Of a DNA stretch of 64,000 nt, positions 15,509 through 63,106 are shown in pieces. The position numbers and the translations under genes were made by a program. The notes under the pieces are model-generated. The model made no database searches, had not been told where the DNA came from, and saw nothing but the letters and a program-made list of their open reading frames with translations. Source of the stretch: Microvirga ossetica (GTDB lineage: Bacteria; Pseudomonadota; Alphaproteobacteria; Rhizobiales; Beijerinckiaceae); the NCBI RefSeq assembly GCF_002741015.1, contig NZ_CP016617.1:868001-932000 (forward strand), read 5' to 3'. Every line of letters starts with the position of its first letter. Position 1 is the first letter of the stretch.

Positions 15509-15565
15509 CTTACGTATTGAGCAGCATCCTGACGTTCGCTGCTTCATGATGCTTTGGACCATTGA

Positions 15566-16413: not shown

Positions 16414-17726
16414 GGGTGTGGTTTGAGGTGGTCATTGGTCAGTACGCCTGTGGGGTGATTGCCAGAGTCTGCTGGTTGATCATCGGTGTTGCGAGCTCAG
16501 TCATCCCTTCGATCTGCATGTAGCGGTGCTGGAGCTGCCAGTCGTCATTGGCCTCCAGCAGCACCGCGCCGATCAGGCGCCTGATGCTGTCCTCGTTGGG
16601 GAAGATGCCCACCACATCGGCCCTGCGTTTGATCTCCTTGTTCAAGCGCTCCAAGGAGTTCGTGCTATGCAGCTTCGTCCGGTGCTGGGCCGGGAAGCTC
16701 ATGTAGGCCAGCACGTCATCCAGGCTGTCGTCGATGAAGACCTTGAGCTTGGGCCAGCGGTTGTGGAGTTGATCGGCAAACTGGGACAGGCTGGCCCGGG
16801 CTGCCGCCTGATCGGGCTGCTGGAAGGCCTGGCGCAGCCCAGCCGCCACCATGGTCTGGTGTGCCTTTGGCACATAAGCGAGCGCGTTCCGGGTCCAATG
16901 AACCCGGCACCTCTGCCAGGTGGCGCCCAGCACCCGACGGATCGCGGCCTTGAGGCCCTCATGCGCGTCCGAGATCACCAGCTTGATGCCCGTGAGCCCG
17001 CGTTTGACCAGATCGCGCAGGAAGTCGGTCCAGAAGATCTCCGCCTCGCTCGGACCGATGTGCAGCCCGACGATCTCGCGCCGGCCCTCGGTTGTGACCG
17101 CAACAGCCACTATGACGGCCACCGAGACGACGCGGCCACCTTCCCGCACTTTGAGGTACGTGGCATCGAGCCACAGATACGGCCACTCTCCCGTGAGCGG
17201 GCGCTGCAGGAAGCCCATCACCCGCTCGTCGATGTCCTTGCAGAGCTTGGACACGGAAGACTTCGAGATGCCGCTCAGGCCCATGGCCTGGACCAGATCA
17301 TCGACCCGGCGCGTGCTCACCCCGGCAATCCAGGCCTCCTGGATCACCGCCACGAGCGCCTTCTCGACTGTGCGCCGCGGCTCGAGGAAACCGGGGAAGT
17401 AGCTGCCGGTGCGCAGCTTGGGGATCTTGAGGTTCAGGGTGCCCAGGCGCGTGTCGAGCGCGCGCTCGCGATAGCCGTTGCGGTAGGTGGCCCGCTCGCC
17501 GCTGCGCTCGTAGCGCGCAGCTCCGATCACGCCCTCGACATCGGTCTCCATCAGGATCTGGAGCACGCTTTCGGCGACACTGCGCAGAAAGTCGCCGTCA
17601 TCGGCCTTCGCCATCAGCTCGGCCAGTGGTAGTCTGTCGTTGGTCATTGGGGTTCCTTCAGCTGGGGTGCAGTCGAGCAACTCCACCATAGCCGGCCCTC
17701 CCAATGACCACCTCATCCCAACACCC
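16414..17726. mobile_element. IS256-family insertion sequence with visible inverted ends
   Basis: The transposase gene is bracketed by near-perfect inverted repeats: 16414-16438 and the reverse complement of 17701-17726 share GAGGTGGTCATTGG and a GGGTGT start. Similarity continues weakly outward (GTAAATTC on the left, GGAAATTTG on the right), so the true ends may be some 10-25 bases further out. I could not identify a target duplication with confidence. Confidence 0.8.
16439..17647 (-). CDS. IS256-family transposase (Mutator-type)
   Basis: 402 residues from the ATG at 17647 (MTNDRLPLAEL); earlier in-frame starts lie in the IR. Characteristic pieces are ATYRNGYRER, PKLRTGSYFP, the catalytic Asp in YLWLDATYLKVR, a second Asp in VISDAHEGLKAAI, the CRVHWTRN motif and the catalytic Glu in HSTNSLERLNKEIKRR. 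All parts of the DDE domain are present, so the copy looks intact and potentially active. Confidence 0.93.
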   Translation of the reverse strand: MTNDRLPLAELMAKADDGDFLRSVAESVLQILMETDVEGVIGAARYERSGERATYRNGYRERALDTRLGTLNLKIPKLRTGSYFPGFLEPRRTVEKALVAVIQEAWIAGVSTRRVDDLVQAMGLSGISKSSVSKLCKDIDERVMGFLQRPLTGEWPYLWLDATYLKVREGGRVVSVAVIVAVAVTTEGRREIVGLHIGPSEAEIFWTDFLRDLVKRGLTGIKLVISDAHEGLKAAIRRVLGATWQRCRVHWTRNALAYVPKAHQTMVAAGLRQAFQQPDQAAARASLSQFADQLHNRWPKLKVFIDDSLDDVLAYMSFPAQHRTKLHSTNSLERLNKEIKRRADVVGIFPNEDSIRRLIGAVLLEANDDWQLQHRYMQIEGMTELATPMINQQTLAITPQAY

Positions 17727-47290: not shown

Positions 47291-48326
47291 TCAGGTGAAG
47301 CTCAGATGGATCTTCATCGACCGGTTGCGATCGCCGGCAGCCTCGAAGGCCGCCACCGCATCGGCGATTGGAAAGGTCCCGCTCATCAGAGGCTTGAGAT
47401 CCACCCGCCGCGCGTTGATCAGGTCGACCGCGAGCGCGAACTCCTCGTGGAAGCGGAACGTCCCCTTCATCTCGATCTCCTTGGCCACCACCAGGTTCTG
47501 CGGGATCGATACATCGCCTCCAAGCCCGAGCTGCACCAGCACGGAGCGGGGCTTAAAGTACCTCCAGGCCGGAGCGCACGGCGCTCTCATTGCCCGAGGC
47601 CTCGAAGTGGACATCGAAGTAGCCTTTGTTGGCCGAATAAGCCGAGAGCGCTGTTGGGTCACTCGCCACATTGATCGTCCGGTCGGCGCCGACAGCCCGC
47701 GCCTTCTCGAGCACGGCATCCATGACGTCCGTGGCGACGATCTCCCGCGCCCCATGCGCCCGAGCAGCGATGATCGCGAGAGCCCCGATTGGGCCGCAGC
47801 CCGTCACCAGAACCCGCTTGCCCAGAAGCGATCCGGCCCGGTTGACCGCATGCAGCGTCACCGCCAGCGGCTCGGCGAACGCCGCCTCGTTGATCGAGAC
47901 GTCCTCGGACACCTTGTGGCATTGCCATTGCTCGGCCACCAGGCTCTGCCGGAATGCGCCCTGGATGTGCGGCATCGGCATGGCGCTGCCATAAAAGCGC
48001 ATGTTCAGGCACTGGTTCTGCTGACCCTTGAGGCAATACTCGCATTGCTGGCAGGGCCGGCTCGGCGAGACCGCCACCCGGTCTCCGATGGCAAGACCCG
48101 AGAGGCCCTCACCAAGGGACCGGATGGTGCCGGCCACCTCATGGCCGAGAATCATCGGCTCGCGCACGCGCACCGTGCCGAAGCCGCCGTGATGGTAGTA
48201 GTGAAGATCAGAGCCACAGATGCCGCCTGCCTCGATGGCGACTTCGACCTGTCCCGGCCCGGGAGCCTCCGGCTCGCGTTCCTCGATGCGCAGGTCCTTG
48301 GCGGCATGAATGACAACGGCTTTCAT
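47291..48326 (-). pseudogene. idnD: L-idonate 5-dehydrogenase, single frameshift
   Basis: From the ATG at 48326 the frame codes for the zinc dehydrogenase N-terminus (KAVVIHAAKDLRIEEREP, CQQCEYCLKGQQNQC, VTGCGPIGALAIIAARAHG) and reads into a stop near 47553. The other frame continues at once ([20 protein letters not shown]... to 47291). A single extra T in the ACTTTAAG near 47556 explains both. Without it the gene would be complete and about 345 residues. Pseudogene or sequencing error cannot be told apart here. Confidence 0.8.
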
Positions 48327-48336: not shown

Positions 48337-49278
48337 TCAGATGACGGGCGTCAGTAGGGGCTGACGGGCAAAATGCGCTGCCAGGTTGTCGCGCACCAGC
48401 TTGCCCATCGCCTGCCGGGTTTCCACGGTTCCGGACGCGTGATGCGGCTGGAGAATGACATTCTCGAGCGTCAGGAAGCGCTCATCGATGTTCGGCTCGT
48501 TCCAGAATACATCAAGGCCTGCGCCTTTGATGACGTTGCGCTCGAGCGCGTCGAGCAGGGCTGCCTCATCGACGGTTGATCCGCGCGAGATGTTGATCAG
48601 AATGCCGTCGCCTCCCAGCGCCTGCAGGACATCGGCGTTGATGACGCCTTGCGTGCTGGCGCCCCCGGCCAGGGTCACAATGAGGAACTCGGACTGCCCG
48701 GCCAGAGCGATCAGATTGGGCACGAAGGTATACGGCAGATCATCTCGCCGGTTGATATCGAAATAGGCGATCGGACAATCGAAGGCAGCCAGACGCTTGG
48801 CGACCTCGACGCCAATGCGGCCCATGCCGACGATGCCAACTCTCTTGCCATGAACCCGGGTGACGAGATGCATGTTGGCGTTGCACCAGTGCCCGTCCCG
48901 CACATACCGATCCGCCCGCGGGATCTGGCGGGCTACCGCCAGGAGTAGCCCAACACCGATGTCGGCCACGTCAGCAGTCAGGACGTTGGGCGTGTTGGTG
49001 ACCCGGATCCCATTTGCCTTGGCGTGTGAGAGGTCGATGGCATCAGTCCCAACACCGTAGCAGGAGACAATCTCGAGCCCTGGTAGGGCTTTCATAAGCT
49101 CAGCTGACGCGCCGATCTCACCGCGTGTCGCAATGGCGCGAACGTTGCCACCCACTTCGCTCAGAAAGGCCGCCCGGTCAGCAGCCTCCCAGAGCCTGTG
49201 AACCTTGTAGTTGCTTTCCAGGTCCTCAAGGTCCCAGGCCGGGTACGGACCCATCATCAGGATCTCGGGCTTGGTCAT
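48337..49278 (-). CDS. D-isomer-specific 2-hydroxyacid dehydrogenase
   Basis: 313 residues, GhrB/hydroxypyruvate-reductase type. NAD(P) motif: GKRVGIVGMGRIGVEVAKRL. Catalytic triad: Arg in LINISRGSTVDE, Glu in GLDVFWNEPN, His in LQPHHASGTVETR. Ten bases before idnD in the transcription order and 123 bases after idnO. In sugar-acid clusters such enzymes reduce 2-ketogluconate or glyoxylate-type acids. Confidence 0.9.
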   Translation of the reverse strand: MTKPEILMMGPYPAWDLEDLESNYKVHRLWEAADRAAFLSEVGGNVRAIATRGEIGASAELMKALPGLEIVSCYGVGTDAIDLSHAKANGIRVTNTPNVLTADVADIGVGLLLAVARQIPRADRYVRDGHWCNANMHLVTRVHGKRVGIVGMGRIGVEVAKRLAAFDCPIAYFDINRRDDLPYTFVPNLIALAGQSEFLIVTLAGGASTQGVINADVLQALGGDGILINISRGSTVDEAALLDALERNVIKGAGLDVFWNEPNIDERFLTLENVILQPHHASGTVETRQAMGKLVRDNLAAHFARQPLLTPVI

Positions 49279-51016: not shown

Positions 51017-51859
51017 TCAAGGGATAGGGTCGAACTTCAACTCGGACAGGGGAGTCACCTTATCGGTTCGGGTCATTTTGAATTCCGTGTTCGGCCCGAG
51101 CCACTTATCCCAAGCTGCGTTGATTTCGCCAGCCTCATCCATTGCCTTAAGCGTTTCGTTGACCTTTGCCAGGAGTGCCGGCTCGTCCTTCTTCATGCCA
51201 ATACCTGTTGGCTGCAACACCATAGGCTCTGGAATCATCTTCAGCTCGACACCTCGCGACTTCGACTCATTGACGAGCTTCGTGATCGTCATGGTGTTCG
51301 CGACCATGCCGAGTGCCTTGTTCTGCTGAACCGCCATGAATGCCGAGCCCGTATCCTGGAAGGTCAGCGGCTCGGAGCCGTTCATCTTGATGGCAAGCTC
51401 GGAAGTCGAACCTTTCGTTGAAGCGAGCCGCTTGCCCTTGAAATCTGCCTTCGAGGTTGCTGGGTCACTCGCCTTTACGGCCAACATTTCCTTGGCAACA
51501 TAGTAGGGATCACTGTACTGGATCTGCTCGGCCCGGCTCAGGGTGTAGGCGAGATTTGCAATCGTCAGGTCGACACGACCAAGCTTCACCTCCGGCACTC
51601 GTGCTTCGACGGACAGCGGTGTGATTTTCGCCTCGACGCCCCATCGCTTCGCGATCCCTTTGCACAGATCGACATCGAAGCCGACCAGCTCGCGGGTCTT
51701 CGGATCCGGAGCGGAGAAGGGTGGCACGTCAGCGTATGTACCGCAGCGAAGCTCCTTGCGCGCCATGATGTCTGCAAGCTGGTCGGCCTTCGCGGGTGCC
51801 GCAACCGCAATACCGAGCGCTGTCACAGCGAGGCCGATTTTCAACGAGTTTATCGACAT
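51017..51859 (-). CDS. Polar amino-acid ABC transporter substrate-binding protein (family 3)
   Basis: 280 residues with a signal peptide (LKIGLAVTALGIAVAAPAKA). The family-3 binding fold shows LRCGTYADVPPFSAPD, ELVGFDVDLCKGIAKRWG (the conserved GFDVDL) and GRVDLTIANLAYTLSRAE. Typical Arg/Asp ligand contacts for an alpha-amino acid are not resolvable by eye. It is the last gene of the large pxp/acc operon; its cargo is probably the substrate of the PxpABC-like enzymes. Confidence 0.9.
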   Translation of the reverse strand: MSINSLKIGLAVTALGIAVAAPAKADQLADIMARKELRCGTYADVPPFSAPDPKTRELVGFDVDLCKGIAKRWGVEAKITPLSVEARVPEVKLGRVDLTIANLAYTLSRAEQIQYSDPYYVAKEMLAVKASDPATSKADFKGKRLASTKGSTSELAIKMNGSEPLTFQDTGSAFMAVQQNKALGMVANTMTITKLVNESKSRGVELKMIPEPMVLQPTGIGMKKDEPALLAKVNETLKAMDEAGEINAAWDKWLGPNTEFKMTRTDKVTPLSELKFDPIP

Positions 51860-51896
51860 GGTCTATCTCCTCTGGTTATCTTTTTGAATTAAGGTT

Positions 51897-52628
51897 TCAG
51901 TGGCGCAGGTCAGAAAGGAAACGCTGCGCCCGAGGGTGCTGCGGCCGAGAGAAAAAGCTCTCCGGATCAGCCTCCTCAAGGATGCGGCCGCCGTCCATGA
52001 ACCAGACACGATCCGCAACTTCTCGTGCAAAACCCATCTCGTGAGTAACGCACATCATGGTCATTCCGTCTGCCGCCAGAGCCTTCATCACGGCGAGGAC
52101 CTCGCCAACCATCTCAGGGTCGAGGGCACTCGTCGGCTCGTCGAACAGCATCGCCGGAGGCTCCATGGCGAGCGCCCGAGCGATCGCAACTCGTTGCTGC
52201 TGACCGCCGGACAACTGACCCGGATACGAGCCGGCCTTCGCCGCCAAGCCTACGCGATCAAGGAGTTGCAATGCCTTCTCTCGGGCCACTTCCCGCTTTA
52301 GGCCGTTGACCGTCACCGGCGACAGGGTGACATTTTCAAGCGCCGAGAGGTGCGGAAAGAGGTTGAAACTTTGGAATACAAAGCCGATGCGGCTGCGGAG
52401 ATGATTGAGCTCCTTACTACGCATCTTGGCATGGACGTCTTGGCCATCAAAGAGGATTGAACCCGATTCGATCTCCTCAAGCCTGTTAACAGTCCGGATC
52501 AACGTCGACTTTCCGGATCCAGATGGTCCACACACCACGACGACCTCGCTTCGTGCCACGTCGGCATTGACATCAACGAGTGCTTGAAAGGATCCATAAT
52601 TCTTGTTGACGTTCGAGAAGCGGATCAT
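51897..52628 (-). CDS. Polar amino-acid ABC transporter ATP-binding protein
   Basis: 243 residues from the ATG at 52628, chosen because GGGAGG sits seven bases before it and the protein then begins [12 protein letters not shown] like its relatives. A longer start at 52664 overlaps the upstream permease stop by four bases. Walker A is [13 protein letters not shown], the signature [17 protein letters not shown], Walker [16 protein letters not shown] and the switch His is in [14 protein letters not shown]. It belongs to the GlnQ-type group. Confidence 0.93.
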
Positions 52629-52660
52629 CGGTGGGCCTCCCGCAGGCGGATGATTGATGG

Positions 52661-53416
52661 TCATGGCTCGGCCGTAAGTGTTTGGGGCTGTAATTCGACG
52701 GGTAATTTACCGCTCGACGTCCCAGCGCGTTTGCGCGCAATTCGCCGCTCCAAAACAGTCGCAGCATAGGACAGAGTCCAACAGACGAGGTAGTATATGA
52801 GTGCCAGGATGAAGAAGACTTCAAACGGCTTCGTTAGAAGCTGATTGTTGATTTGGTTGGCCGCAAACGTGAGCTCCGGAACGTTGATCACGTACCCTAA
52901 AGTCGTCTCCTTGATCGTCGAGACGAACTGGCTCAGGATGCTCGGCATCATGTTGTAGAGAGCTTGCGGGAGGATAATGTACCACATGGCTCCAAGGTAG
53001 CTGTGGCCGAGCGCGCGCGCAGCATCCATTTGACCACGGCCAAGAGCCATAATCCCGGCTCGCACGACTTCACTTAGGAACGCTGCCTCATAGATGACCA
53101 GGGTTACGAGCATCGTCACGAACCCAGGTATGTTCGCGCCGATGAGCACCGGGACCATGAAATAGACCCAGAGGATCAGCATCAGCAGAGGCACGCCCCG
53201 CGCGATGTAAACAAGGGCAGTCGACGGCCAGAGCAGGAACGGCGAGCGAGACATTCGGGCGAGAGCGAGCAAGACGCTGAGGGGGAATGCAAGGCCAATG
53301 CTCAGTACCGACAGAATAAGGGTCGCCGCGAACCCACCGAGTGGGCCATTGGGATACTGCCCGATCAGAAGGAGAAGCCAGTTATCCTGAATGATAGAGA
53401 GGATGTCCCACAGCAT
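52661..53416 (-). CDS. Polar amino-acid ABC transporter permease 2
   Basis: 251 residues with five to six membrane segments. The hallmark HisM/GlnP loop reads [20 protein letters not shown] followed by [20 protein letters not shown]. The start at 53416 is four bases before the stop of the other permease gene. It works with the second permease as a heterodimer. Confidence 0.92.
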
Positions 53417-53419
53417 TGG

Positions 53420-54121
53420 TCAGCGCTCCCCCTTCAGCACTGCCTGGCGGCTCAGTGCTGCCCCGGCAGACATGATCAACAGGGAGCAAATCAGGTATGC
53501 AATGGTCGCAATCAGGTAGACCTCGAAGGTTCTGAAGCTCTGGTTCTCGACTTCCTTGACGGCGTGCGTAAGCTCAGCGACCCCGATCGCCATCGCAAGG
53601 CTGCTGTTCTTGAACAGAGAGACGCTATGATTGATAAGCGCGGGCAAGGCGTTGCGAAAAGCTTGCGGCATAAGCACGTAGCGCATCGTACCAAAGAAGC
53701 TGTGGCCGAGCGCGCGGGCAGCCTCGGACTGTCCAGCCGGGACGGAGCGAATGCCGGAGCGCAGATCCTCGCTGAAGTAAGCGGCTTGGCAAAGCCCCAG
53801 CGCGATGACGGCGAAGATGGCCTCCGCGCCATGATCGGAAAGCCAGTATTGTAGAGCCTCGGGCAGTACGCTTGAGATACCGAAGTACCACAGCATGAGC
53901 TGCACCAGGGTCGGAACATTGCGGTGATAAGACACGTAGGCTGCGACAGCTCGACCAGCGAGGCGGCTTGGAGAGAGCCGAATGATCAGCAGCAGGATGG
54001 CGAGAGTCATGGCAAGAAGCCACGACCCGGCAGCAATCACGAAGGTCATCTCTAACCCGTGAAGGAGCAGTCGCCCAAAGTCCGGGTTCATGAGGATCGC
54101 AGTGAGATCGAACCCGGTCAT
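53420..54121 (-). CDS. Polar amino-acid ABC transporter permease 1
   Basis: 233 residues of the HisM/GlnP type. The conserved cytoplasmic loop reads QAAYFSEDLRSGIRSVPAGQ then [21 protein letters not shown]-terminal LLLHGLEMTFVIAAGSWLL marks the first segment. It starts five bases after the SDR stop, so SDR and importer form one transcript. Confidence 0.92.
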   Translation of the reverse strand: MTGFDLTAILMNPDFGRLLLHGLEMTFVIAAGSWLLAMTLAILLLIIRLSPSRLAGRAVAAYVSYHRNVPTLVQLMLWYFGISSVLPEALQYWLSDHGAEAIFAVIALGLCQAAYFSEDLRSGIRSVPAGQSEAARALGHSFFGTMRYVLMPQAFRNALPALINHSVSLFKNSSLAMAIGVAELTHAVKEVENQSFRTFEVYLIATIAYLICSLLIMSAGAALSRQAVLKGER

Positions 54122-54126
54122 TGCAG

Positions 54127-54897
54127 CTAACCCGCCGTCGCTTGTCGGTCGTCTTTTGTCGCGGGACGAGCCGTCTGGAGGCCACCGAGTACCTGGAGAG
54201 TTGGAGTGATCTCCATGTGACCAACATTCATGGATACGGGCGCCGCAACGGCGAAGGCGATTGCCTCAGCAATGTCAGCCGCCTCCGGCAGTTCAAAGCC
54301 TTCGATGAAGCGCTCCCGGATCTCGGGGGTGTCCCCATGAACATGCGCAAAGATGTCGGTGGCCACGCGCCCGGGACAGATCTCTGTGACGCGAACCCGG
54401 TGTCCGAAGGCGTCAATGCGCAGCTGGCGGGACAGCATGCTGACCGCGGCTTTGGTCGCATGGTAGGTCGAGTTCCCGCCGAAATTGTAGGCTCCGGCGA
54501 TCGACGAGATATTGATGACATGACCGCGATCCCGCGCCACCATGCCGGGAACGATGAGCCGGCAGAGATGGAGCACGGCCCGTGTGTTCACATCGACGAG
54601 CAGGTCGATGTCCTCGGGATCCGCCTCAAGGAACTTCTTGGGACGGTCGACGCCCGCATTGTTGACCAGAATGTCGAACTGAACCGCCTCTGCGAGACTT
54701 GCGAGCTTTTCGCGATCCGACACATCGATGACATGCGCGATGCATCCGGTTCTTTCCGCAAGGCGTTCCAGCGGCTCTCGACTGCGGGCGATCGCGTGAA
54801 CCTCCAAGCCTTCGCGGCGGAACCGCTCGACCACGGCGGCGCCAATCCCTGAAGAAGCGCCAGTCACGAGAGCTGTCTTGTAGTCAGAGAAGGGCAT
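54127..54897 (-). CDS. SDR-family oxidoreductase
   Basis: 256 residues: ALVTGASSGIGAAVVERF (glycine motif), DILVNNAGVDRPKKFLE, active-site Ser-Tyr-Lys in ISSIAGAYNFGGNSTYHATK. It resembles serine/3-hydroxyacid dehydrogenases (YdfG type), which act on beta-hydroxy acids. Located between pxpA and the amino-acid importer in the same direction, it may oxidise or reduce a side-chain hydroxyl of the imported compound. Substrate unknown. Confidence 0.85.
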   Translation of the reverse strand: MPFSDYKTALVTGASSGIGAAVVERFRREGLEVHAIARSREPLERLAERTGCIAHVIDVSDREKLASLAEAVQFDILVNNAGVDRPKKFLEADPEDIDLLVDVNTRAVLHLCRLIVPGMVARDRGHVINISSIAGAYNFGGNSTYHATKAAVSMLSRQLRIDAFGHRVRVTEICPGRVATDIFAHVHGDTPEIRERFIEGFELPEAADIAEAIAFAVAAPVSMNVGHMEITPTLQVLGGLQTARPATKDDRQATAG

Positions 54898-54970
54898 GAG
54901 TGTCCTCGCTGGTTGATAGAGCTTAGGAGAAGTTAGCCAGCAGATGCCAAGACCGTTTGTGTTTGTGGCG

Positions 54971-54985
54971 ATAAGCTGTTCTTAT
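54971..54985. promoter_or_regulatory. ATAAG-N5-CTTAT palindrome before the SDR-importer genes (Nac-type site)
   Basis: Perfect inverted repeat, extended by one more paired base each side (GATAAG...CTTATC, 54970-54986). It also fits the ATA-N9-TAT pattern known for Nac, a LysR regulator. It lies 73 bases before the SDR start, in the only gap (109 bases) inside the operon, suggesting a second promoter. Confidence 0.6.
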
Positions 54986-55005
54986 CTTGTGGCGTCTGAG
55001 CCCGG

Positions 55006-55770
55006 CTACGCCATCTGGGATACAGGCACCACCTTCCCACCAGCCTGCTCGATTTCCATACGGATCTTACGAGCGAGCGATAAGGCGCCAGGCGTATCCC
55101 CATGCAGCAGGATGCTGTGAGGACCCATCGGCAGGTCTTCTCCCTCATACGTTGTAACAGTCCTCTGCTGTAGAACTTGTCGCACCCGTTCCAGAACCTT
55201 GGCCTCGTCATGAATGACCGAGTTCGGCAGCCGGCGCGGAACGAGAAGACCTGACTTGTCATAGGCCCGGTCTGCGAGAAAGGTGGTCGCGACACGCAGT
55301 CCGCAGGACGTCGCCGCGTCCTCAATAGCCCGGCTCGTTGAGGAAACGATGATCAGCTCAGGATTGAAGCGTGCGACCGCGGCCACAAGAGGTGCTGCGA
55401 CGGCGGGATCTGCGGCCGCCATGTTCCCGAGGGCACCATGGAAGCTCATGTGGGTCATTCTGTGCCCCACCACGCGCGCGATCCCCTCAAGCGCTCCAAG
55501 CTGATAAATCACCATTGCAGCCAACTCGTCCGAGTCGATCTGCATCGGCCGTCGTCCGAACCCCTGCTTGTCGGGAAAGCCGACATGCGCACCGATATCG
55601 ACCCCGCGTTCCAGGGCTGCCTTGACGGTTTTCTCCATGATCAGGGGATCGCCCGCATGAAAACCGCAGGCGAGGTTCGCCGACGACAGCACATCCAACA
55701 GGGCATCGTCGTCACCGATGCGCCACTGGCCGTAGCCTTCAGCAAGGTCTGCATTGAGATCGATTTGCAT
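55006..55770 (-). CDS. pxpA: 5-oxoprolinase subunit A (LamB/YcsF family)
   Basis: 254 residues. Family landmarks are IDLNADLAEGYGQW, SSANLACGFHAGDPLIMEKT, GAHVGFPDKQGFGRR and HMSFHGALGN (usually KPHGALYN), with EGEDLPMGPHSILLHGDTPG at the end. In E. coli PxpA acts with PxpB and PxpC to open 5-oxoproline with ATP. Here it shares an operon with biotin carboxylase genes, which suggests a carboxylation-dependent route. It is 12 bases downstream of the carrier-like gene. Confidence 0.92.
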   Translation of the reverse strand: MQIDLNADLAEGYGQWRIGDDDALLDVLSSANLACGFHAGDPLIMEKTVKAALERGVDIGAHVGFPDKQGFGRRPMQIDSDELAAMVIYQLGALEGIARVVGHRMTHMSFHGALGNMAAADPAVAAPLVAAVARFNPELIIVSSTSRAIEDAATSCGLRVATTFLADRAYDKSGLLVPRRLPNSVIHDEAKVLERVRQVLQQRTVTTYEGEDLPMGPHSILLHGDTPGALSLARKIRMEIEQAGGKVVPVSQMA

Positions 55771-55782
55771 AGGTTGGCTCCC

Positions 55783-56196
55783 CTAGGGCTTCAGTGCGAC
55801 GAGCGGATCGCCATAGCCGACGAGCGAGCGGTCTGGCGCAATGATCGAGGCCACAATCCCGTCGCGCGGAGAGAGGACGGGGAGGAGAATGGGTCCGACC
55901 TGTAGAAGCCCCAGCGGCTGACCGGCCGCCACGGGCTCGTTCGGCTCTACCAGCGCCGCCTCTTGGACAGGGTGAGCATGCAGGAAAAGCCCCACACTTG
56001 GCGATACGGCAACATCAGGTTGGCCTCTTGCCGGAACGGCTGCATCCCGCACAGAGCCCGCCGCCCCAACTCGCCTGCTTCTAGCCTTAACACTGCGCCT
56101 CAGGCAGATGCGATAATCCGGGCCTGTCAGCTCGTATGTCGTAATCCCCGCTTCGGAGATCCAGGCTGCAATTTGTGGAATGTCTGAGATCTTCAT
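55783..56196 (-). CDS. Biotin carboxyl carrier-like protein lacking the biotinylation motif
   Basis: 137 residues from the ATG at 56196, which overlaps the pxpC stop by four bases. The N-terminus (ISDIPQIAAWISEAGITTYE) and GPDYRICLRR match the first part of AccB. A lipoyl/biotinyl-like domain follows (VGLFLHAHPVQEAALVEPNE, PVAAGQPLGLLQVG, LPVLSPRDGIVASI, SLVGYGDPLVAL). The place where EAMKM should be reads QVGPILLP, with no lysine, so it cannot be biotinylated in the usual way. A canonical AccB is encoded in the same operon, so this copy probably has a structural or regulatory role. Confidence 0.8.
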   Translation of the reverse strand: MKISDIPQIAAWISEAGITTYELTGPDYRICLRRSVKARSRRVGAAGSVRDAAVPARGQPDVAVSPSVGLFLHAHPVQEAALVEPNEPVAAGQPLGLLQVGPILLPVLSPRDGIVASIIAPDRSLVGYGDPLVALKP

Positions 56197-57185
56197 GAGC
56201 TCGCTCTCCGGGCTCCCGCAAGATCGAGACACCGCGCTACGTCGGACAGCCATTGAGAGACTTCGTCGAGGGCGTGCAGTGCCCCATCCCAGTCTGTCTC
56301 GATGAAGCGGATGGAACTGCCAATCGGGGCCTGCCCGAGCCGCCAGAGATCCGCCTCTATGACAGTTCCGATCTTTGGATACCCTCCAGAGGGCTGGGCA
56401 TCGCACATCTGCACGATCGGCTGGCCGCCATGTGGCACCTGAATGACTCCGGGAACGATGCCATGCGAGCGCAGCTCTAGGGGAGCAACGGGCTCAAGGA
56501 CAGGGCCGGACAGGCGATATCCGTAGCGGTCGCTCTGAGGCGTCACCTTCCACGGCTTCAGCCACAGATCGCTCTGGGACTCCGGTTTGAAGCAGTGGTA
56601 TTCGGCGGCCGGCAGAACCCGGACCGCCGGCAGGCCATCCACCATCAGCGGCAAAGCGAATGACGGCGGCACAATACTGGTTCCGTCCGACGCGCGGCGT
56701 GCGCCGTTGGGCTGGCCGAAAGGCAGCTTGTCTCCCTGCTGCAGCGCCCTCCCCTCAAGACCGCCGATCGCTCCGCGCAACTGCGTGGACCGGGATCCTA
56801 GGACGATGGGAACGTCGATGCCGCCTGCCACGCAGACGTAAGCACGAGATCCCCGCCAACGGGCAGATCTCGTCAGCCCAAGGCGCAGCACCGAGCCGGC
56901 TTTCGCTTGGATGCTCGACCAGGGAAGGATGGCTTTGCCATCAATCGATGCCTCGCACGTTGCACCGGTCAATGCGATCTTGGCTTCACAATCAAACCGA
57001 GTTTCGAAGGGAAAGACCTGAATCTCGATCGCAGCAGCATCCTCACTGTTGCCGAGCAGTAGGTTGCCGCAGGCGAGTGCAAGCCCGTCCATCGCGCCGG
57101 CGGTGCCGACACCCCATTTCAAAGCACCGAAGCGTCCGCGATCCTGTATGGTCGTGAGCGCGCTCTTGGATCGAATCTCCATCAT
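56193..57185 (-). CDS. pxpC: 5-oxoprolinase subunit C (biotin-dependent carboxyltransferase-like)
   Basis: 330 residues of the KipA/allophanate-hydrolase-subunit-2 type. Landmarks are TTIQDRGRFGALKWGVGTAG at the N-terminus, AMDGLALACGNLLLGN, EIQVFPFETRF, PESQSDLWLKPWKVTPQSDR, and GGYPKIGTVIEADLWRLGQ near the end. These correspond to half of the carboxyltransferase domain of urea carboxylase. It overlaps pxpB by four bases and pairs with it as the usual PxpB-PxpC complex. Confidence 0.92.
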   Translation of the reverse strand: MMEIRSKSALTTIQDRGRFGALKWGVGTAGAMDGLALACGNLLLGNSEDAAAIEIQVFPFETRFDCEAKIALTGATCEASIDGKAILPWSSIQAKAGSVLRLGLTRSARWRGSRAYVCVAGGIDVPIVLGSRSTQLRGAIGGLEGRALQQGDKLPFGQPNGARRASDGTSIVPPSFALPLMVDGLPAVRVLPAAEYHCFKPESQSDLWLKPWKVTPQSDRYGYRLSGPVLEPVAPLELRSHGIVPGVIQVPHGGQPIVQMCDAQPSGGYPKIGTVIEADLWRLGQAPIGSSIRFIETDWDGALHALDEVSQWLSDVARCLDLAGARRASS

Positions 57186-57841
57186 CGGACCACCTCGACG
57201 ATGCGGAACCGAATACTGTCGCCTGGCTGCAGCAGGATGGGTGGATCGCGGGTCGCGTCAAAGAACGTCGTTGATGTCGTGCCAATCGTATTCCAGCCAC
57301 TGGGACCGGCCGAGGCCGATACGCCAGTCTGGGATCCTCCGATCGAGACCGCGCCACCCGGAAGCTTCAGCACCGGCACCTTCCTGCGGGGTGTGGCGAT
57401 GCGTGCGTCCATCCCGCCAAGATAGCAGTAGCCTGGATGGCTTCCGATCGCGTAAACGGGATAGAGCGGACTGGCATGAATCTCGGCAATTTCGTGCGAG
57501 CACAAGCCAGTATGGGCGACGACATCCGCCATGTGCGGCCCCCCTTCCCCGCCATAGACAACTGGCAGCTCAATCGTGCGCCCCTGTAGGATCATTGGTG
57601 TCGCTGCGTCCCAGGCGGAGTGCAGACGTGTCTCGAGCGGCGCAAGCGACCGCGGCGGCACCGAGAAGCTCACGAGGAGGTTGTTGACGCCTGGTACGGC
57701 TTCGCTCACTTCCGGCCAAGTATCCACCTCACGGGCAAGCGACCAAATCCGCCGTTGCGTCGTCAGGCTGGTCTCGCCCGGTGCTTCGAAGAGAAGCGCT
57801 CTGGTACCCAGCAGGCTGATCTGGGGCTCCTTCACCATCAT
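57182..57841 (-). CDS. pxpB: 5-oxoprolinase subunit B (KipI-like)
   Basis: 219 residues of the KipI/allophanate-hydrolase-subunit-1 type. Landmarks are [12 protein letters not shown] (N-terminus), [53 protein letters not shown] and [20 protein letters not shown]. Its start overlaps the accC stop and its stop overlaps the pxpC start (four bases each), so biotin carboxylase, PxpB and PxpC are translationally coupled. Confidence 0.93.
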
Positions 57842-59190
57842 GCGGAGGCCTCGGCTTTCAGCAATTGCTCAAGATAATGGATATCGAACCCGCCCTCGAT
57901 GAAGCCTGGCTCGTCCACAATCCTTCTGTGCAAGGCAAGGTTCGTGGCGACACCCTCGACCCTCATCTCGGACAGCGCCACCTTCAACCGCGCCATCGCC
58001 TCGTGCCGGGTCTGTCCATGAACAATGAGCTTGGCGATCATCGAGTCGTAGTAGGGCGGTACGGCCGCTCCCGCGGCGATGTGACTGTCGACTCGCACGC
58101 CAGGCCCACCCGGAACGTCGAACCGTGTGATCTGCCCCGGGGATGGTGCGAAGGTGGTGGGATCTTCGGCGTTGATCCGGCATTCGAAAGCGTGACCGTG
58201 GCAGCCTATATCGGCTTGGCTAAGGGTGAGGGCCTCGCCGCGTGCAACCCGGATGCCTTCGGCCACGATATCGATTCCGGTGGTCGCTTCAGTCACTGGA
58301 TGCTCGACCTGCACCCGCGTATTCATCTCGATGAAGAAGAATTCCTCTTGCTCGACCAGGAACTCGAAGGTGCCGACGCCCTGATAGCCGATCCGCCGGC
58401 AGGCCTCGACACAGCGCTCGCCGATCCTCGCGACGAGGTCGACTGGCAGACCCGGAGCCGGGGCTTCCTCCAAGACCTTCTGGTGGCGGCGCTGGAGCGA
58501 GCAATCGCGGCTGCCGAGCCAGAGTGCCGTACCATAGGCATCGGCCAACACCTGGATCTCGACGTGGCGCGGATGCTCGAGAAACTTTTCGGCATAGATC
58601 TCCGGATTGCCGAAGGCGCGGCGCGCTTCCTCGCGAACAAGCGCAAACGCATCGGCAAGCTCCGAACGGGCCCGGACAACGCGCATGCCGCGACCGCCTC
58701 CTCCGCCTGCCGCCTTGAGGATCAACGGAAGGCCGATCTCACCGGCGACCGATTGCAAAGCCTCCAGGTCGTCGGGCAGGGCTCCCTCTGAGCCGGGCAC
58801 GCACGGCACGTTTGCCTCGCGCATGGCACGCTTGGCTGCAACCTTGTCGCCCATGGTGCGAATGCATGCCGGGCTCGGCCCGATGAATGTCAGACCCGAT
58901 CGGGCGACGTCGTCGGCAAAGGCGGCATTCTCGGACAGAAACCCGTATCCGGGATGAATGGCCTGTGCGCCCGTCACCTCCGCAGCAAGCAAAATCGCGG
59001 CACCATCGAGATAGCTCTTCCCTGCCGGAGCGGGGCCGATACACACGGCGGTATCGGCGTATTTCACGTGGGGGGCATCTCGATCGGCCTGCGAATAGAC
59101 GGCGACCGTCCGCAATCCAAGCGTTCGGCAGGCCCGCTGGATCCGAAGGGCAATTTCGCCGCGATTGGCTATGAGAACAGTGTCGAACAT
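57838..59190 (-). CDS. accC: Biotin carboxylase
   Basis: 450 residues, ATP-grasp enzyme. [19 protein letters not shown] opens the protein, the glycine-rich ATP loop is [14 protein letters not shown], and the catalytic motif [17 protein letters not shown] is intact. It ends with [20 protein letters not shown]. It carboxylates the biotin on AccB using ATP and bicarbonate. Its coupling to pxpB, and the lack of acetyl-CoA carboxyltransferase genes, suggest the carboxyl acceptor is an amide or lactam, not acetyl-CoA. Confidence 0.93.
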
Positions 59191-59196
59191 TGGCGC

Positions 59197-59661
59197 TCAG
59201 ACGATCCGCAGGAGGGGCTGGCCAGCTACGACTTCGTCGCCGGTCGTGACGAACACAGCCTCGATCACGCCATCCCGTTCAGCCGTAACAGGATTGAACA
59301 TTTTCATAGCTTCAACAGTACAGACAGTGGTGCCAGTCGTGACTGCCTGGCCCACGGTCACGAAGGGCGGCGCATCCGGCGAAGGGCCCAAATAGACAAT
59401 CCCGGACAAGGGGGCGGTGACATCGTTCGTGGAGGCTGCGGATTTGACGGACGCCGGGGGCTCGCGACGAGAGGAGTCCGGGCGAGTGTGCGTCACAGTC
59501 GGTGTTGACGCTGCCCCACTGGTTAAGGGCGCGGACCCCAAGGTCCCCGTCTCGCGCGTCAGTCGCAGAGTCCAGCCATCCTTGCTGACCTCCACTTCAG
59601 CAAGGTCGGATGCGCTCATCGCATCGATTAGTGCTTTGATCTCGTCGAGTGTCATGAGCAT
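59197..59661 (-). CDS. accB: Biotin carboxyl carrier protein
   Basis: 154 residues. The C-terminal biotinyl domain (~80-154) has TVEAMKMFNPVTAERDGVIE with the biotinyl Lys in EAMKM, preceded by APLSGIVYLGPSPDAPPFV. The middle is a Thr/Ser/Pro-rich linker. Starts at 59661 and 59655 are both possible. Six bases separate it from accC. It is the first gene of the operon and the counterpart of the motif-less copy at 55783-56196. Confidence 0.92.
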   Translation of the reverse strand: MLMTLDEIKALIDAMSASDLAEVEVSKDGWTLRLTRETGTLGSAPLTSGAASTPTVTHTRPDSSRREPPASVKSAASTNDVTAPLSGIVYLGPSPDAPPFVTVGQAVTTGTTVCTVEAMKMFNPVTAERDGVIEAVFVTTGDEVVAGQPLLRIV

Positions 59662-59746
59662 CACCGGTCCGTCACCGTGACGGGCCTATGTTCCTGACGC
59701 TAGCAGCCGCCCAAAAGGGAGGCCAAGACAGATTGTCTCTGTGCCC

Positions 59747-59761
59747 ATAAGAGCAGCTTAT
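59747..59761. promoter_or_regulatory. ATAAG-N5-CTTAT palindrome before accB (Nac-type site)
   Basis: Perfect 15-base inverted repeat (ATAAGAGCAGCTTAT) overlapping the last codon of lysR and lying ~85 bases upstream of the accB start. Same arms as the site at 54971. It fits ATA-N9-TAT. Confidence 0.6.
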
Positions 59762-60699
59762 GCTCTCTTGAGGACGCCTTCCTCTTGAGATGAGAGCATA
59801 TTACCGGGCAGTTCCCGAACAAGTTCCAGCAGAATTTGCCTGATCGCGGCGGCTGGCTCGGACAGCGGAAGGTGGTCCGATTGGCACAGTGCCAAGGGCA
59901 CCTCAATGGCGGGATCAACAATCCGCGCATGCCACGCCGATGTGGACTCCACGACCTGTTTCGCCATCGAGCCGGGCAGGACCGTCACGCCCATTCCTGC
60001 CGCAATCACGGAAGCCAGTGTGCTCGCCGACTCGATCTCGGCGACGACGCGAGGGACAAGCCCAATGCCGGCGCACGCCGCGTCCACGACTTTGCGGACC
60101 ACGTTATACGGGCGAGGCAGGAAGAGATCCATTTCGCCGATCCGTTCGAGAGGCACGGGATCCAACGGAGCCGGGATGCTGCTGGGACCCACCAAGTAGA
60201 GGCTTTCGCGCAAGAGGGGCTGGAACGTGAGCCCGTGCACCGACTGCCCCCCGCCGTACAGCACGGCGAGATCCATTCTGCCGTTCATCACGAGTTCCGA
60301 GAGCGTGGTCCCATAGGTCTCGTTGAGGTAGAGCACGACCCCCGGATGACGGCTTCTTGTGGCAACCAGCAGAGGCATGGCAAGGCCAGCAGCGGCAGTG
60401 CCCGGTGCAAGGCCAACGGAAACGGCGCCGGAAATACCCTCTCCGGCGGCCCTCATGTCAACCCGCGCCTGATCGCATTGCCGAAGAATGAGCTGAGCGT
60501 GGCGATACAGGACCTTGCCTGCCTCCGTCGGCGTCACGCCCCGCGGCGTGCGAACCAGGAGCTGTTGGCGGACTTCGGACTCAAGCGTTGCCAATTGCTG
60601 GCTCAAAGCGGGCTGAGCCACGTGAAGGATATCTGCCGCCTGTGTCAGATTGCCGATATCGACAATCTTCACGAAGTACTGGAGGCGTTTGAGGTTCAT
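59758..60699 (-). CDS. LysR-family regulator, Nac-like
   Basis: 313 residues from the ATG at 60699 (MNLKRLQYFVKIVDIGNLTQ). The N-terminal HTH (AADILHVAQPALSQQLATLE) and QLLVRTPRGVTPTEAGKVLY match the Nac/CynR-like branch of nitrogen-responsive LysR proteins. The C-terminal effector domain has AVLYGGGQSVHGL and VIAAGMGVTVLPGS. It precedes accB on the same strand and is divergent from the RraA-like gene. It probably binds the ATAAG-type palindromes at 60757, 59747 and 54971. Confidence 0.92.
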   Translation of the reverse strand: MNLKRLQYFVKIVDIGNLTQAADILHVAQPALSQQLATLESEVRQQLLVRTPRGVTPTEAGKVLYRHAQLILRQCDQARVDMRAAGEGISGAVSVGLAPGTAAAGLAMPLLVATRSRHPGVVLYLNETYGTTLSELVMNGRMDLAVLYGGGQSVHGLTFQPLLRESLYLVGPSSIPAPLDPVPLERIGEMDLFLPRPYNVVRKVVDAACAGIGLVPRVVAEIESASTLASVIAAGMGVTVLPGSMAKQVVESTSAWHARIVDPAIEVPLALCQSDHLPLSEPAAAIRQILLELVRELPGNMLSSQEEGVLKRA

Positions 60700-60756
60700 G
60701 ATCCGATCACTGCTCCCGGCACCGGACATGAGCAGGGCTCCTCCCACTCGCGAGCC

Positions 60757-60771
60757 ATAAGATTTTCCTAT
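60757..60771. promoter_or_regulatory. ATAAG-N5-CCTAT near-palindrome in the divergent lysR/RraA gap (Nac-type site)
   Basis: ATAAGATTTTCCTAT, nine of ten arm bases as in the other two sites and again ATA-N9-TAT. It lies 58 bases before the lysR start and 84 before the RraA-like start. Confidence 0.5.
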
Positions 60772-60854
60772 GTTGGCAGACTGAACTTGTCTTGGCTAGT
60801 CGCCAGGTGCCCCGTTAGCTGTCAGGGATCAATCTGAGATCCATGAGCTGAACA

Positions 60855-61520
60855 ATGACAACTAGCATTAGGAAATACCCTTCGGCTCCGTCAGCCGATC
60901 CTGAGATCATCGCAACTTTGAAACAAATCCCGGTCGCTCTCCTCAGTGACCAGCTGCAGCGCAACCGGGGCAGTACCGGGCTCCAACCTTATCATCACCC
61001 TGCTCCGCTGGCAGGCACAGCTGTCACAGTGCGCACCCGCGCCGGCGATAACCTCGCCATTCTTCGCGCTTTCGAAATCGTCAGGCCGGGCGATGTGCTG
61101 GTGATCGATGCCGATGGCGATGTCGCTAATGCGCTCGTCGGCGGGATCATGACCTTCTATGCTGCAAGTGCAGGGGTCGCCGGGATGGTCCTTGATGGTG
61201 CGATCCGCGACGTCGCTGAGATCCGGGAGCGTCCTTTCCCAGTCTATGCCCGAGGCGTCAATCATCGGGGTCCTTACAAGGACGGCCCTGGCGCGATCAA
61301 CGTCCCGGTGTCTGTGGGCGGAATGGCTGTATGCCCCGGCGACATCGTCGTTGGCGATCAGGATGGACTGGTCGTGCTCTCTCGCGATGAGGCGCCGACC
61401 GTGATCGAGAAGGCTCTCCTTCAGAAGCAGAAGGAGGAAGAAACCATGCAGGCGATCCGAGAAGGCAGATGGGACCGCTCGTTTGTCAACGCGCTGGAAG
61501 CGCGTAGCATCAACTTGTAG
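60855..61520 (+). CDS. RraA-like (dimethylmenaquinone methyltransferase/HMG aldolase family) protein
   Basis: 221 residues. The class II-type RraA/aldolase fold shows LSDQLQRNRGSTGLQPYHHP, AGTAVTVRTRAGDNLAIL, VIDADGDVANALVGGIMTFY, GMVLDGAIRDVAEIRERPFP with the key Arg and Asp, and VCPGDIVVGDQDGLVVLSRD. The group includes 4-hydroxy-4-methyl-2-oxoglutarate aldolase and RNase E inhibitors; the enzyme role is more likely in this metabolic setting. It diverges from lysR. Confidence 0.88.
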   Translation: MTTSIRKYPSAPSADPEIIATLKQIPVALLSDQLQRNRGSTGLQPYHHPAPLAGTAVTVRTRAGDNLAILRAFEIVRPGDVLVIDADGDVANALVGGIMTFYAASAGVAGMVLDGAIRDVAEIRERPFPVYARGVNHRGPYKDGPGAINVPVSVGGMAVCPGDIVVGDQDGLVVLSRDEAPTVIEKALLQKQKEEETMQAIREGRWDRSFVNALEARSINL

Positions 61521-61903
61521 CCGTTGACGTCGCTCGCAGCGGATAACGCCAAAGCAGCAGTGTGAGTCCAAAGCGAGATGGAACGACCATCCAGCCGTTG
61601 ACCTCAGAGCCGAGGCTCTAGCTCACCTCGTTGCTGACGCAGTGAAGCATTCGACGAGGATAGAACGAGCGGGATTTAGGAGTAAGTCATGCCTCTTGAC
61701 TGGGGAGTTCACTCACTGGATCGACCGTTCGTTGGAGCTGCGGGCCGCGCACCAGCTGCACAGTTGGGTGTATCGGTGCAGCAGATAGCAAATTCAGGTC
61801 TTAGGTCGACGGCTATCCGCTAGCCGAATTTACTTCGATAGAGATGTCTGCCCGGCGCAGACCACTCTGGAGATTTGGCAGAATAATCGCAGGGATCATG
61901 ATA
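61521..61903. other. Gap before the aminotransferase gene, no gene supported
   Basis: About 380 bases on the plus strand between the RraA-like gene and the aminotransferase. I see no open frame with coding character and no clear operator. The end of the gap has AGGGA nine bases before the ATG at 61904. Confidence 0.35.
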
Positions 61904-63106
61904 ATGCTTCAACTCGCAGATCGGCTAAAAGCTGTGAAGGTTTCGGCATCTGCCGCGATGACGGACCAAGCACGTGAGCTTCGTGCTCAAGGTGTTCAGA
62001 TCATCAGTCTATCATCAGGAGAGCCTGATTTCCCGACACCGCAGCATGCGATTGAGGCCGCCCATCAGGCCGCACTAGCGGGAGACACCAAATACCCTGC
62101 GCAACCTGGCACCGCAGCTTTGAGGGCCGCCGTTCAGCGCAAGTTCAAGCGCGAAAACAACTTGGACTATGCGCTTGATGAGATCCTGGTCGCCAATGGG
62201 GGCAAGCAAATTATCTTCAACGCACTTCTCGCGACGTGCAACCCGGGGGATGAAGTTGTTATCCCTGCGCCCGGTTGGATCACGTATGCTGATATCGCAC
62301 TTTTTGCCGAAGCGACGCCCGTTGCTGTGCCTTGCCCCGAGAACAATCATTTCAAGCTTCGCGCTGATGATCTGGATGCTGCGATTACGCCAAACACCAA
62401 GTGGCTCATTCTAAACTTCCCTAACAACCCGACTGGTGCAGCATGCACTCGCTCTGAAATGCGAGAAATTGCCGACGTAATGTTGAAGCATCCTGAGGTA
62501 TGGATCCTGACCGACGACATCTACGAGCACCTTACCTATGACGGTTTCGAGTTCTGCACGATCGCCGAGGTCGAGCCGAAGCTTAAGGATCGCGTGCTGA
62601 CCGTGAACGGGGCCTCGAAGGCCTATGCGATGACTGGCTGGCGCGTCGGTTACTGCGGCGGTCCGAAGGAGCTGATCGCAGCAATGAACAATGTCCATGG
62701 GCAGGCCACAGGCGGGATCTGCACCTTGAGTCAGGCCGCAGCGGTTGCGGTGCTTGAGGGTCCTCAGGATTTTCTGAAGGAGCGCGCGGATGTCTACCGC
62801 GATAGGCGTGACCTGGTCGTCAGGCTCCTCAACGAAATTCCTGGCATCAACTGTCATACGCCGGAAGGAGCATTCTACGTATTTCCAAATATCGCTGGAT
62901 GCATCGGAAAAATGACTGAACGGGGCCGGCGTATTGAGTCTGACGCCGACTTCGTCTCGGCACTCTTGGAAGAGCAGCACGTTGCCACAGTGCAGGGTAG
63001 CGCATATGGGATGAGCCCCTACTTCAGGATTTCTTATGCTACGGATACAGAAACATTGAAGGAAGGATGCCGACGCATCTCACGCTTCTGCGAAGCATTA
63101 CGGTAA
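61904..63106 (+). CDS. Class I/II aminotransferase, aspartate aminotransferase type
   Basis: 400 residues from the ATG at 61904, favoured by the AGGGA at the right spacing; an ATG at 61898 is too close to it. Family landmarks: SLSSGEPDFPTPQHAIEAAH, LILNFPNNPTGAACTRSEM, WILTDDIYEHLTYDGFEF, the PLP lysine in VNGASKAYAMTGWRVGY and the substrate-binding Arg in YFRISYATD. It could accept the amino acid released by the pxp/acc operon, but this is inferred from position only. Confidence 0.9.
   Translation: MLQLADRLKAVKVSASAAMTDQARELRAQGVQIISLSSGEPDFPTPQHAIEAAHQAALAGDTKYPAQPGTAALRAAVQRKFKRENNLDYALDEILVANGGKQIIFNALLATCNPGDEVVIPAPGWITYADIALFAEATPVAVPCPENNHFKLRADDLDAAITPNTKWLILNFPNNPTGAACTRSEMREIADVMLKHPEVWILTDDIYEHLTYDGFEFCTIAEVEPKLKDRVLTVNGASKAYAMTGWRVGYCGGPKELIAAMNNVHGQATGGICTLSQAAAVAVLEGPQDFLKERADVYRDRRDLVVRLLNEIPGINCHTPEGAFYVFPNIAGCIGKMTERGRRIESDADFVSALLEEQHVATVQGSAYGMSPYFRISYATDTETLKEGCRRISRFCEALR

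Follow-up and report, generated by a model that had tools for sequence, protein, structure and literature searches.

What reaction is carried out by an operon in which genes for a biotin carboxylase and its carrier protein overlap with, and run into, genes for a 5-oxoprolinase-type enzyme? The question is raised by a gene cluster at positions 51017–61520 of a 64,000-nucleotide stretch of the Microvirga ossetica genome (assembly GCF_002741015.1, contig NZ_CP016617.1, forward-strand positions 868,001–932,000), hereafter called the window, whose own numbering is used throughout. The cluster encodes AccB, AccC, PxpB, PxpC, a carrier-like protein, PxpA, a short-chain dehydrogenase/reductase (SDR), and an importer. 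The answer we favor, at slightly under an even chance and from sequence comparison, is that it is a set of genes for breaking down a lactam carboxylic acid, probably 5-oxoproline bearing a substituent, whose ring would be opened with ATP, bicarbonate, and biotin. The linkage of accBC to pxp genes is already in print for Staphylococcus aureus (PMC11315280). New here are a carrier protein without biotin, near-fixed changes in PxpA and PxpB, and an importer binding protein that lacks the usual amino-group Asp.

The operon proposed by the first-pass annotation is real. Its genes all lie on the minus strand in the map of open reading frames (ORFs), the profile matches of the window proteins agree with the named families, and the 4-base overlaps are exact (accC–pxpB at 57838–57841, pxpB–pxpC at 57182–57185, and pxpC–carrier at 56193–56196). 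Beyond that annotation, we recognized a NAC-type LysR regulator, a divergent RraA-like gene, a nearby aminotransferase gene, and the absence of a biotinylation lysine from the carrier-like protein. The genes are as follows, with primes marking the acc copies of the operon and the Lys1605 column defined further below.

59758–60747, minus strand: NAC-type LysR regulator upstream of accB' (NF008410 NAC, 457 bits, cut-off 309; probable start at residue 17 of the ORF)
59197–59664, minus strand: accB', biotin carboxyl carrier protein (BCCP) with an EAMK motif and Lys in the biotinyl column (PF00364; TIGR00531, 110.9 bits, slightly below the cut-off of 115.2)
57838–59190, minus strand: accC', biotin carboxylase (BC), placed in a dedicated clade by our tree (TIGR00514, 668 bits, cut-off 626.5)
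57182–57841, minus strand: pxpB, carboxyltransferase (CT)-like subdomains C and D, with Ser134, Val157, and Arg at the Lys1605 column (PF02682; TIGR00370, above cut-off)
56193–57185, minus strand: pxpC, CT-like subdomains A and B (PF02626, TIGR00724; PxpC equivalog NF045499, 293.6 bits, cut-off of 500 not reached)
55783–56196, minus strand: pseudo-BCCP, the carrier-like gene, AccB-like without the biotinyl lysine (ATG start at 56196; 137 amino acids)
55006–55770, minus strand: pxpA, LamB/YcsF hydrolase subunit, with Ser109 and Thr163 (PF03746; NF003814, above cut-off)
54127–54897, minus strand: SDR oxidoreductase (PF00106)
53420–54121, minus strand: importer permease 1 (PF00528)
52661–53416, minus strand: importer permease 2 (PF00528)
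51897–52664, minus strand: importer ATPase (PF00005)
51017–51859, minus strand: importer binding protein, with Asn replacing the amino-group Asp (PF00497)
60855–61520, plus strand: RraA-like gene of the 4-hydroxy-2-oxo acid aldolase family, divergent from the operon (PF03737, NF004850)
61844–63106, plus strand: aspartate-transaminase-like aminotransferase, just outside 51017–61520 (PF00155; NF004769, 530.5 bits, below the cut-off of 617)
48337–49278, minus strand: glyoxylate-reductase-like 2-hydroxyacid dehydrogenase, a possible late-step partner that is weakly linked (PF02826; NF009714, 208 bits, below the cut-off of 455)

Scans for promoters and terminators gave no excess over shuffled sequences, the Rfam search gave no match at gathering scores, and no tRNA was found.

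Is this arrangement a peculiarity of one genome? Named genomes were scanned with ten PxpC proteins, and the best 80 of at least 573 confirmed relatives were retained; because these are the closest by PxpC, the partner frequencies given here apply to close relatives. Partners were counted in the 59 loci where pxpC is flanked by 8 kb or more on both sides, and the counts for the importer, SDR, regulator, aminotransferase, and RraA-like genes were recomputed with identity thresholds. The gene map, which excludes the Bosea locus L070 and the second pxp set of the host genome, takes ORFs from stop to stop, so that overlapping frames cause a few odd orders. The loci are held by alpha-, beta-, and gammaproteobacteria, including Microvirga, Methylobacterium, Bradyrhizobium, Variovorax, Paraburkholderia, Pseudomonas, Erwinia, Marinomonas, and acetic acid bacteria. 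The first-pass annotation had suggested a search for the order accB-accC-pxpB-pxpC-carrier-pxpA in other genomes, and this plain order recurs in 45 of the 59 loci. Taken singly, accB is present in 53, accC in 55, the carrier in 57, and pxpA in all 59, accompanied by the SDR (58), the LysR gene (56), the aminotransferase (57), and each importer gene (54, the ATPase at 60% identity or more). RraA-like genes occur in 38 loci, or in 35 when at least 55% identity is required, and 25 loci have a homolog of the 2-hydroxyacid dehydrogenase. Within the cluster, conservation is highest for the SDR and the ATPase, each with a median identity of 76.5%.

Relatives of the cluster sit on large plasmids in several rhizobia and in Microvirga terrae, whose plasmid pR24_1 has the same gene order. 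Annotated plasmids with the set or variants of it come from Microvirga, Bradyrhizobium, Burkholderia, Allorhizobium, Sinorhizobium, Mesorhizobium, and Terrarubrum; on the Bosea plasmid (L070), no acc genes adjoin pxpBC. Two Bradyrhizobium loci (L071 and L147) have one pxpA flanked by two different pxpB–pxpC pairs, beside one set of accBC and pseudo-BCCP.

The carrier-like protein aligns with AccB over its full length and reads LQVGPILLPV where the neighboring AccB reads VEAMKMFNPV. Across the window and 100 mapped loci, Lys occupies the biotinyl-lysine column in none of the 88 carrier-like rows (the L142 row comes from a doubtful frame) and in all 90 AccB rows, 81 of the window type and nine of a second type discussed below. 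The two kinds of rows were separated by best match, and a biotinylatable carrier could hide among the AccB rows; in the gene map, two AccB rows never fall in the same locus. Searching 5.8 billion proteins with a profile gave 66 clusters: 55 without the Lys, ten BCCPs that have it and score far more weakly, and one fragment lacking the column. Judged by this column, the pseudo-BCCP cannot hold biotin. It is nevertheless predicted to fold like BCCP: the AlphaFold2 model averages a pLDDT of 79.7, reaches 88–95 in blocks across the C-terminal domain, and has a disordered linker, and its top Foldseek matches are the biotinyl domains of E. coli BCCP (TM 0.91–0.94 by target).

A carrier that has lost its biotinylation site might be a functionless, decaying duplicate of accB'. 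The pseudo-BCCP gene is, with accB', the fastest-changing of those compared between the window and M. terrae (dN/dS of 0.18 and 0.24, respectively, against 0.05–0.08 for accC', pxpA, pxpB, and pxpC). A ratio of 0.18 nevertheless speaks against decay, as do its presence in 57 of the 59 loci and in three classes, a recurrent motif of its own, and a start codon that overlaps the pxpC stop, all of which make a relic highly improbable. The gene also stays adjacent to accC' in the eight reordered loci that keep accC' (L066, L067, L068, L069, L125, L151, L152, and L155). A likelier parallel is found in plants. BADC is a BCCP-like protein in which the AMKL motif is absent and which works with BC and BCCP as a glue or cap; a 2025 paper terms it unique to the plant enzyme, whereas earlier work saw it as an inhibitor (PMC11926652). 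Going by that description of BADC and by our predicted fold, the two proteins would share a biotinyl domain without the biotinylation lysine. They differ in that the pseudo-BCCP is bacterial and operon-encoded and is accompanied by PxpBC instead of acetyl-CoA carboxyltransferase. We claim a likeness and not descent; the pseudo-BCCP is co-encoded with accBC' and may bind BC and BCCP.

Does the biotin carboxylase itself belong to this system or to fatty-acid synthesis? In a tree of 55 biotin carboxylases (a short search without bootstrap), the AccC' proteins of the window type form one clade (SH-aLRT 98) separate from the housekeeping AccC sampled; L159, labeled housekeeping yet lying inside this clade, is the accC' of L125 itself. 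The AccC of the second accBC-linked architecture forms another clade (support 100), and several separate lineages have accC in the company of pxp genes. The host genome (9.63 Mb in six contigs, with the window on contig C2) has a further accB–accC pair from C1:380898, a further pxpA at C1:3809045, and a further pxpB–pxpC pair elsewhere on C1. The pxpABC of the operon is therefore not the only set of the host, and the second set has ordinary residues. Searches with PF01039 (Carboxyl_trans), to the exclusion of the alpha-subunit family PF03255, found no gene in the window or anywhere on C2, in line with the annotated absence of acetyl-CoA carboxyltransferase genes nearby; since all five genome matches lie on C1 and C4, accBC' has no beta-type neighbor of this kind. 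We thus rejected accBC' as fatty-acid genes, and the view of the first-pass annotation that they belong to the lactam system is borne out by the separate AccC' clade, the other accBC pair, and the absence of PF01039 genes nearby.

The residues of the Pxp subunits bear on the substrate. The E. coli-type residues Lys109 and Glu163 of PxpA and Phe134 and Arg157 of PxpB are Ser, Thr, Ser, and Val in the window. Ser109 is found in 87 of 90 PxpA rows of the window type, against Lys in every other row filled (nine of the second type, 11 stand-alone, and 23 from a phylum sample, which consists of 29 of the 30 best-scoring loci among 135 genomes with a match), and position 163 is mostly Thr instead of Glu. 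In PxpB, Ser134 occupies 92 of 93 window-type rows, against Phe in ten second-type, 17 stand-alone, and 27 phylum-sample rows; two genes of the stand-alone set were entered twice (L029/L056 and L035/L062; identical). Val157 occupies 77 of the 93, whereas Arg157 occurs in two of them and in all rows outside the type. Exceptions are Mesorhizobium L068, which has Lys109, Glu163, and Arg157, and L043 and L067, which have Asn109 and Gly109, respectively. Such near-fixed changes suggest that the substrate, or the chemistry of the active site, is a different one. PxpC falls below the 5-oxoprolinase equivalog cut-off (NF045499), although homologous PxpA, PxpB, and PxpC are encoded together. Its position 221 was not counted as clade-specific, as it lies within a pattern used to fetch the loci, and Gln259, directly beyond a fetching pattern, carries little weight.

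The first-pass annotation had taken the biotin coupling as a sign that the substrate may not be plain 5-oxoproline. The conclusion is still probable, on the strength of the near-fixed changes and the second, ordinary set in the genome, but the coupling itself is weakened as a marker because ordinary-looking PxpABC adjoins accBC in locus L231 of the same phylum, and pxpABC and accBC share an operon in S. aureus (PMC11315280). The L231 stretch at 3397–9714 has accB-accC-pxpB-pxpC-pxpA, encoding the ordinary PxpA and PxpB residues, then an NRAMP-like transporter gene (identified by eye) and a BCCP-like gene in which DVLSKLM replaces the AMKM motif. Another locus, L233, has the following in series at 3768–8946: accC, a long PxpC-matching frame (possibly a PxpB-PxpC fusion), and pxpA. 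The pairing in L231, together with the homology of all three Pxp subunits to 5-oxoprolinase, would suit plain 5-oxoproline as the substrate, with the residue changes and the biotin machinery merely tuning the same reaction. We consider this unlikely: a further pxpA and pxpBC in the genome encode the ordinary residues, PxpA 109 and 163 and PxpB 134 and 157 are unlike every other row filled, and glutamate as the product would need no private aminotransferase or RraA-like gene.

Another column of PxpB addresses the mechanism. Lys1605 of the Kluyveromyces lactis urea amidolyase most likely serves as the general base in carboxyl transfer (PMC5770610). Its column, which we located by counting along the alignment and which corresponds to the Lys of TTKYNP in bacterial urea carboxylase, holds Lys in three of three urea carboxylases and in ten of ten PxpB of the second accBC-linked type. 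It holds Arg in all 93 window-type PxpB, in 15 of 17 stand-alone PxpB (with two genes counted twice), and in E. coli PxpB. A urea-carboxylase mechanism is therefore unsupported for the window type, whereas it is plausible for the second type. The latter (L044–L053, in other alphaproteobacterial genomes) resembles the window in grouping pxpA, accB, accC, a PxpB-like gene, and pxpC, in the order pxpA-accB-accC-pxpB-pxpC with other ABC transporter genes. In the PxpC tree, its ten loci form a separate group (support 99), and the window type forms one group of 35 rows with one change (support 90). The second type thus differs in the catalytic Lys and in its PxpC and AccC clades, and no pseudo-BCCP was found among its mapped loci. 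Of the two, it may be the stronger candidate for a genuine split lactam carboxylase.

The likeness drawn by the first-pass annotation to a urea amidolyase split into subunits is not supported for the window type. In such an enzyme, urea or a different open-chain amide would be carboxylated by AccC', AccB', and PxpBC, and the reaction would be completed by a hydrolase. BC, BCCP, and a homologous two-part CT are indeed all present, as in the urea carboxylase/urea amidolyase of K. lactis and Oleomonas, and an allophanate hydrolase gene lies 41 kb away in the window. In Acinetobacter baumannii, the biotin carboxylase gene mumC, whose operon includes an allophanate-hydrolase homolog, is needed for growth on urea as nitrogen source (PMC5050338). 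The window set differs, however, in its separate subunits, in Arg for Lys1605 (93 of 93), in a LamB-type hydrolase instead of allophanate hydrolase, and in the company of an amino-acid-type importer; accBC is missing from four of the 59 loci, and the urea-carboxylase profile TIGR02712 matches piecewise only, at 30 to 492 bits against a cut-off of 1303.85. We regard this reading as very unlikely and rejected it on the missing Lys, the hydrolase, and the importer. The distant allophanate hydrolase was likewise rejected as a partner, as it is grouped with an adjoining biuret amidohydrolase-like gene.

What, then, does the importer carry? Amino-acid binding proteins bind the alpha-amino group through one Asp and the carboxylate through one Arg, and E. 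coli GlnH, HisJ, and ArgT carry both. All 73 window-type binding proteins have the Arg, and all 73 have Asn in place of the Asp. Of 23 other family-3 matches in the host genome, 15 binding proteins served as a control: six have Asp, nine another residue, and none Asn. Loss of the Asp is thus not rare, whereas the fixed Asn is particular to the window type. The pattern would suit a ligand that has a carboxylate but lacks a free amino group, a lactam acid for example, without proving it.

We propose the following pathway. The importer would take up the ring compound via its carboxylate, with no need for a free amino group. AccC' would use ATP and bicarbonate to carboxylate the biotin on AccB', and the carboxyltransferase-like PxpB-PxpC would hand the carboxyl group, or the activation, to the lactam, whose ring PxpA, by the chemistry of its family, would hydrolyze to an amino acid. 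The pseudo-BCCP may be a non-catalytic subunit that holds or caps AccB'-AccC' as BADC does in plants. The neighboring aminotransferase would transaminate the amino acid; in loci with the RraA-like gene, the product would be cleaved by a 4-hydroxy-2-oxo acid-type aldolase, and the SDR, with the hydroxyacid dehydrogenase in some loci, would process the fragments. The NAC-type regulator suggests use of the compound as a nitrogen source. The hydroxyproline route passes through 4-hydroxyglutamate and 4-hydroxy-2-oxoglutarate. Its aldolase step yields pyruvate and glyoxylate (PMC3188589). Because the aminotransferase, the RraA-type aldolase, and the glyoxylate-reductase-like gene recall this route, our first guess for the substrate, offered with little confidence, is a 4-hydroxylated 5-oxoproline that would give a 4-hydroxyglutamate.

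Several observations weigh against this pathway. Four of the 59 loci (L134 and L141, from metagenome-assembled genomes, and L148 and L150, from Erwinia) lack accBC', and every AccC found in their genomes falls outside the AccC' clade; their PxpA and PxpB retain the clade residues all the same, so that either housekeeping AccBC is borrowed or biotin is not needed. L148 and L150 keep the pseudo-BCCP, which a BADC-like role does not readily explain, and a shorter locus, L144, has accB' without accC'. The importer is of a different type in some loci, and the RraA-like gene is missing from 21 of the 59. Loss of the binding-protein Asp in nine of the 15 control proteins reduces the force of the importer argument. 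Biotin linkage and residue changes are separable, because L231 joins accBC to PxpABC with ordinary residues, and Arg at the Lys1605 column places window-type PxpB with the stand-alone and E. coli proteins. PxpBC has been reported to hydrolyze ATP and is assumed to phosphorylate 5-oxoproline, with biotin unmentioned in the portions of these papers covered here (PMC8453981, PMC13274462), and the biotin carboxylase gene of A. baumannii is needed for growth on urea (PMC5050338).

These points lend weight to a simpler reaction, in which PxpABC would open plain or substituted 5-oxoproline with ATP alone, the reaction assumed for enzymes of the E. coli type, and accBC' would serve another carboxylation or a co-regulated pathway. 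PxpB shares the Arg of the E. coli protein, accBC' is absent from the four loci named, PxpBC is a reported ATPase (PMC8453981), and the authors of the S. aureus study took accBC in the pxp operon as fatty-acid genes (PMC11315280). Against it, the cluster has no other recurring carboxyltransferase gene, PF01039 genes are absent from its surroundings, the AccC' proteins accompany these genes as a clade of their own, and accC and pxp genes are linked in several distinct lineages. We see it as a real but doubtful possibility. A broader and decidedly speculative extension of the biotin-dependent reading would make PxpBC at root a biotin-dependent carboxyltransferase, such that lactams are opened by AccBC carboxylation followed by PxpA hydrolysis. 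Some lineages would have private accBC and a BADC-like biotinless carrier that ties AccBC to the task, others would borrow housekeeping AccBC, and stand-alone 5-oxoprolinases would be hidden biotin enzymes.

How does the biotin-dependent lactam pathway we favor relate to known systems? The PxpABC enzymes of E. coli, Bacillus subtilis, and Corynebacterium glutamicum are homologous in all three subunits, and E. coli PxpB has the same Arg at the Lys1605 column. The window set differs in its dedicated accBC and pseudo-BCCP, in PxpA without Lys109 and Glu163, and in PxpB without Phe134 and mostly without Arg157. The six-gene pxpB operon of S. aureus, as described, likewise joins accB, accC, pxpA, and pxpC; its genes were taken as fatty-acid and amino-acid genes, and a pseudo-BCCP goes unmentioned in the excerpts of that paper (PMC11315280). 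The mumTLUHC operon of A. baumannii similarly places a biotin carboxylase beside an allophanate-hydrolase homolog in a nutrient operon, and differs in having been interpreted as serving urea use and manganese import, and in its NRAMP-family transporter (PMC5050338); by these descriptions, it is likely related to the window cluster. A paper on FArhodopsin mentions one cluster with biotin-dependent carboxylase genes and a PxpA-like gene (PMC10308929). In Gluconacetobacter diazotrophicus, a second accC homolog failed to compensate for an AccC mutant (PMC7676354). Among the matches listed in our literature search, which left most subscription journals outside, there was no account of the proteobacterial cluster or of a bacterial biotinless BCCP. 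Two retrieved papers were set aside: a transcriptome of Burkholderia pyrrocinia P10 with peanut root exudate, in which pxpA has a log2 change of 1.02 and its identity with the acc-linked copy is not shown (PMC10061817), and an unrelated study of the sugarcane apoplast (PMC6294378).

Elsewhere in the window, a biuret/cyanurate-type set occupies 9047–16231 and consists of the following genes.

9047–10444: AtzE amidohydrolase
10677–12272: multipass permease-like ORF with no family match
12320–13000: biuret amidohydrolase-like gene, below cut-off
13218–15032: allophanate hydrolase
15566–16231, plus strand: GntR-like regulator, identified by eye

Transposase genes of the Mutator and ISNCY families lie at 16439–17716 and 41709–43028. 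At 47291–48326 on the minus strand, a zinc alcohol dehydrogenase/L-idonate 5-dehydrogenase-like gene is split over two frames; it is intact at the same place in M. terrae, and the split copy is either a pseudogene or a sequencing error.

A 2011 survey of biotin-dependent carboxylases left open whether split urea-carboxylase-type CT genes partner with biotin carboxylases encoded elsewhere (PMC3199775). The cluster makes this question testable, as it offers a dedicated BC and BCCP, a CT-like pair, a hydrolase, loci that have accBC' as well as loci that lack it, and a pair of clades with different residues at the catalytic position. If true, a bacterial BCCP that is conserved yet biotinless would extend an assembly device that has been called unique to plants (PMC11926652). 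Public records label these genes as subunits of acetyl-CoA carboxylase and 5-oxoprolinase, and the reading proposed here would correct such labels.

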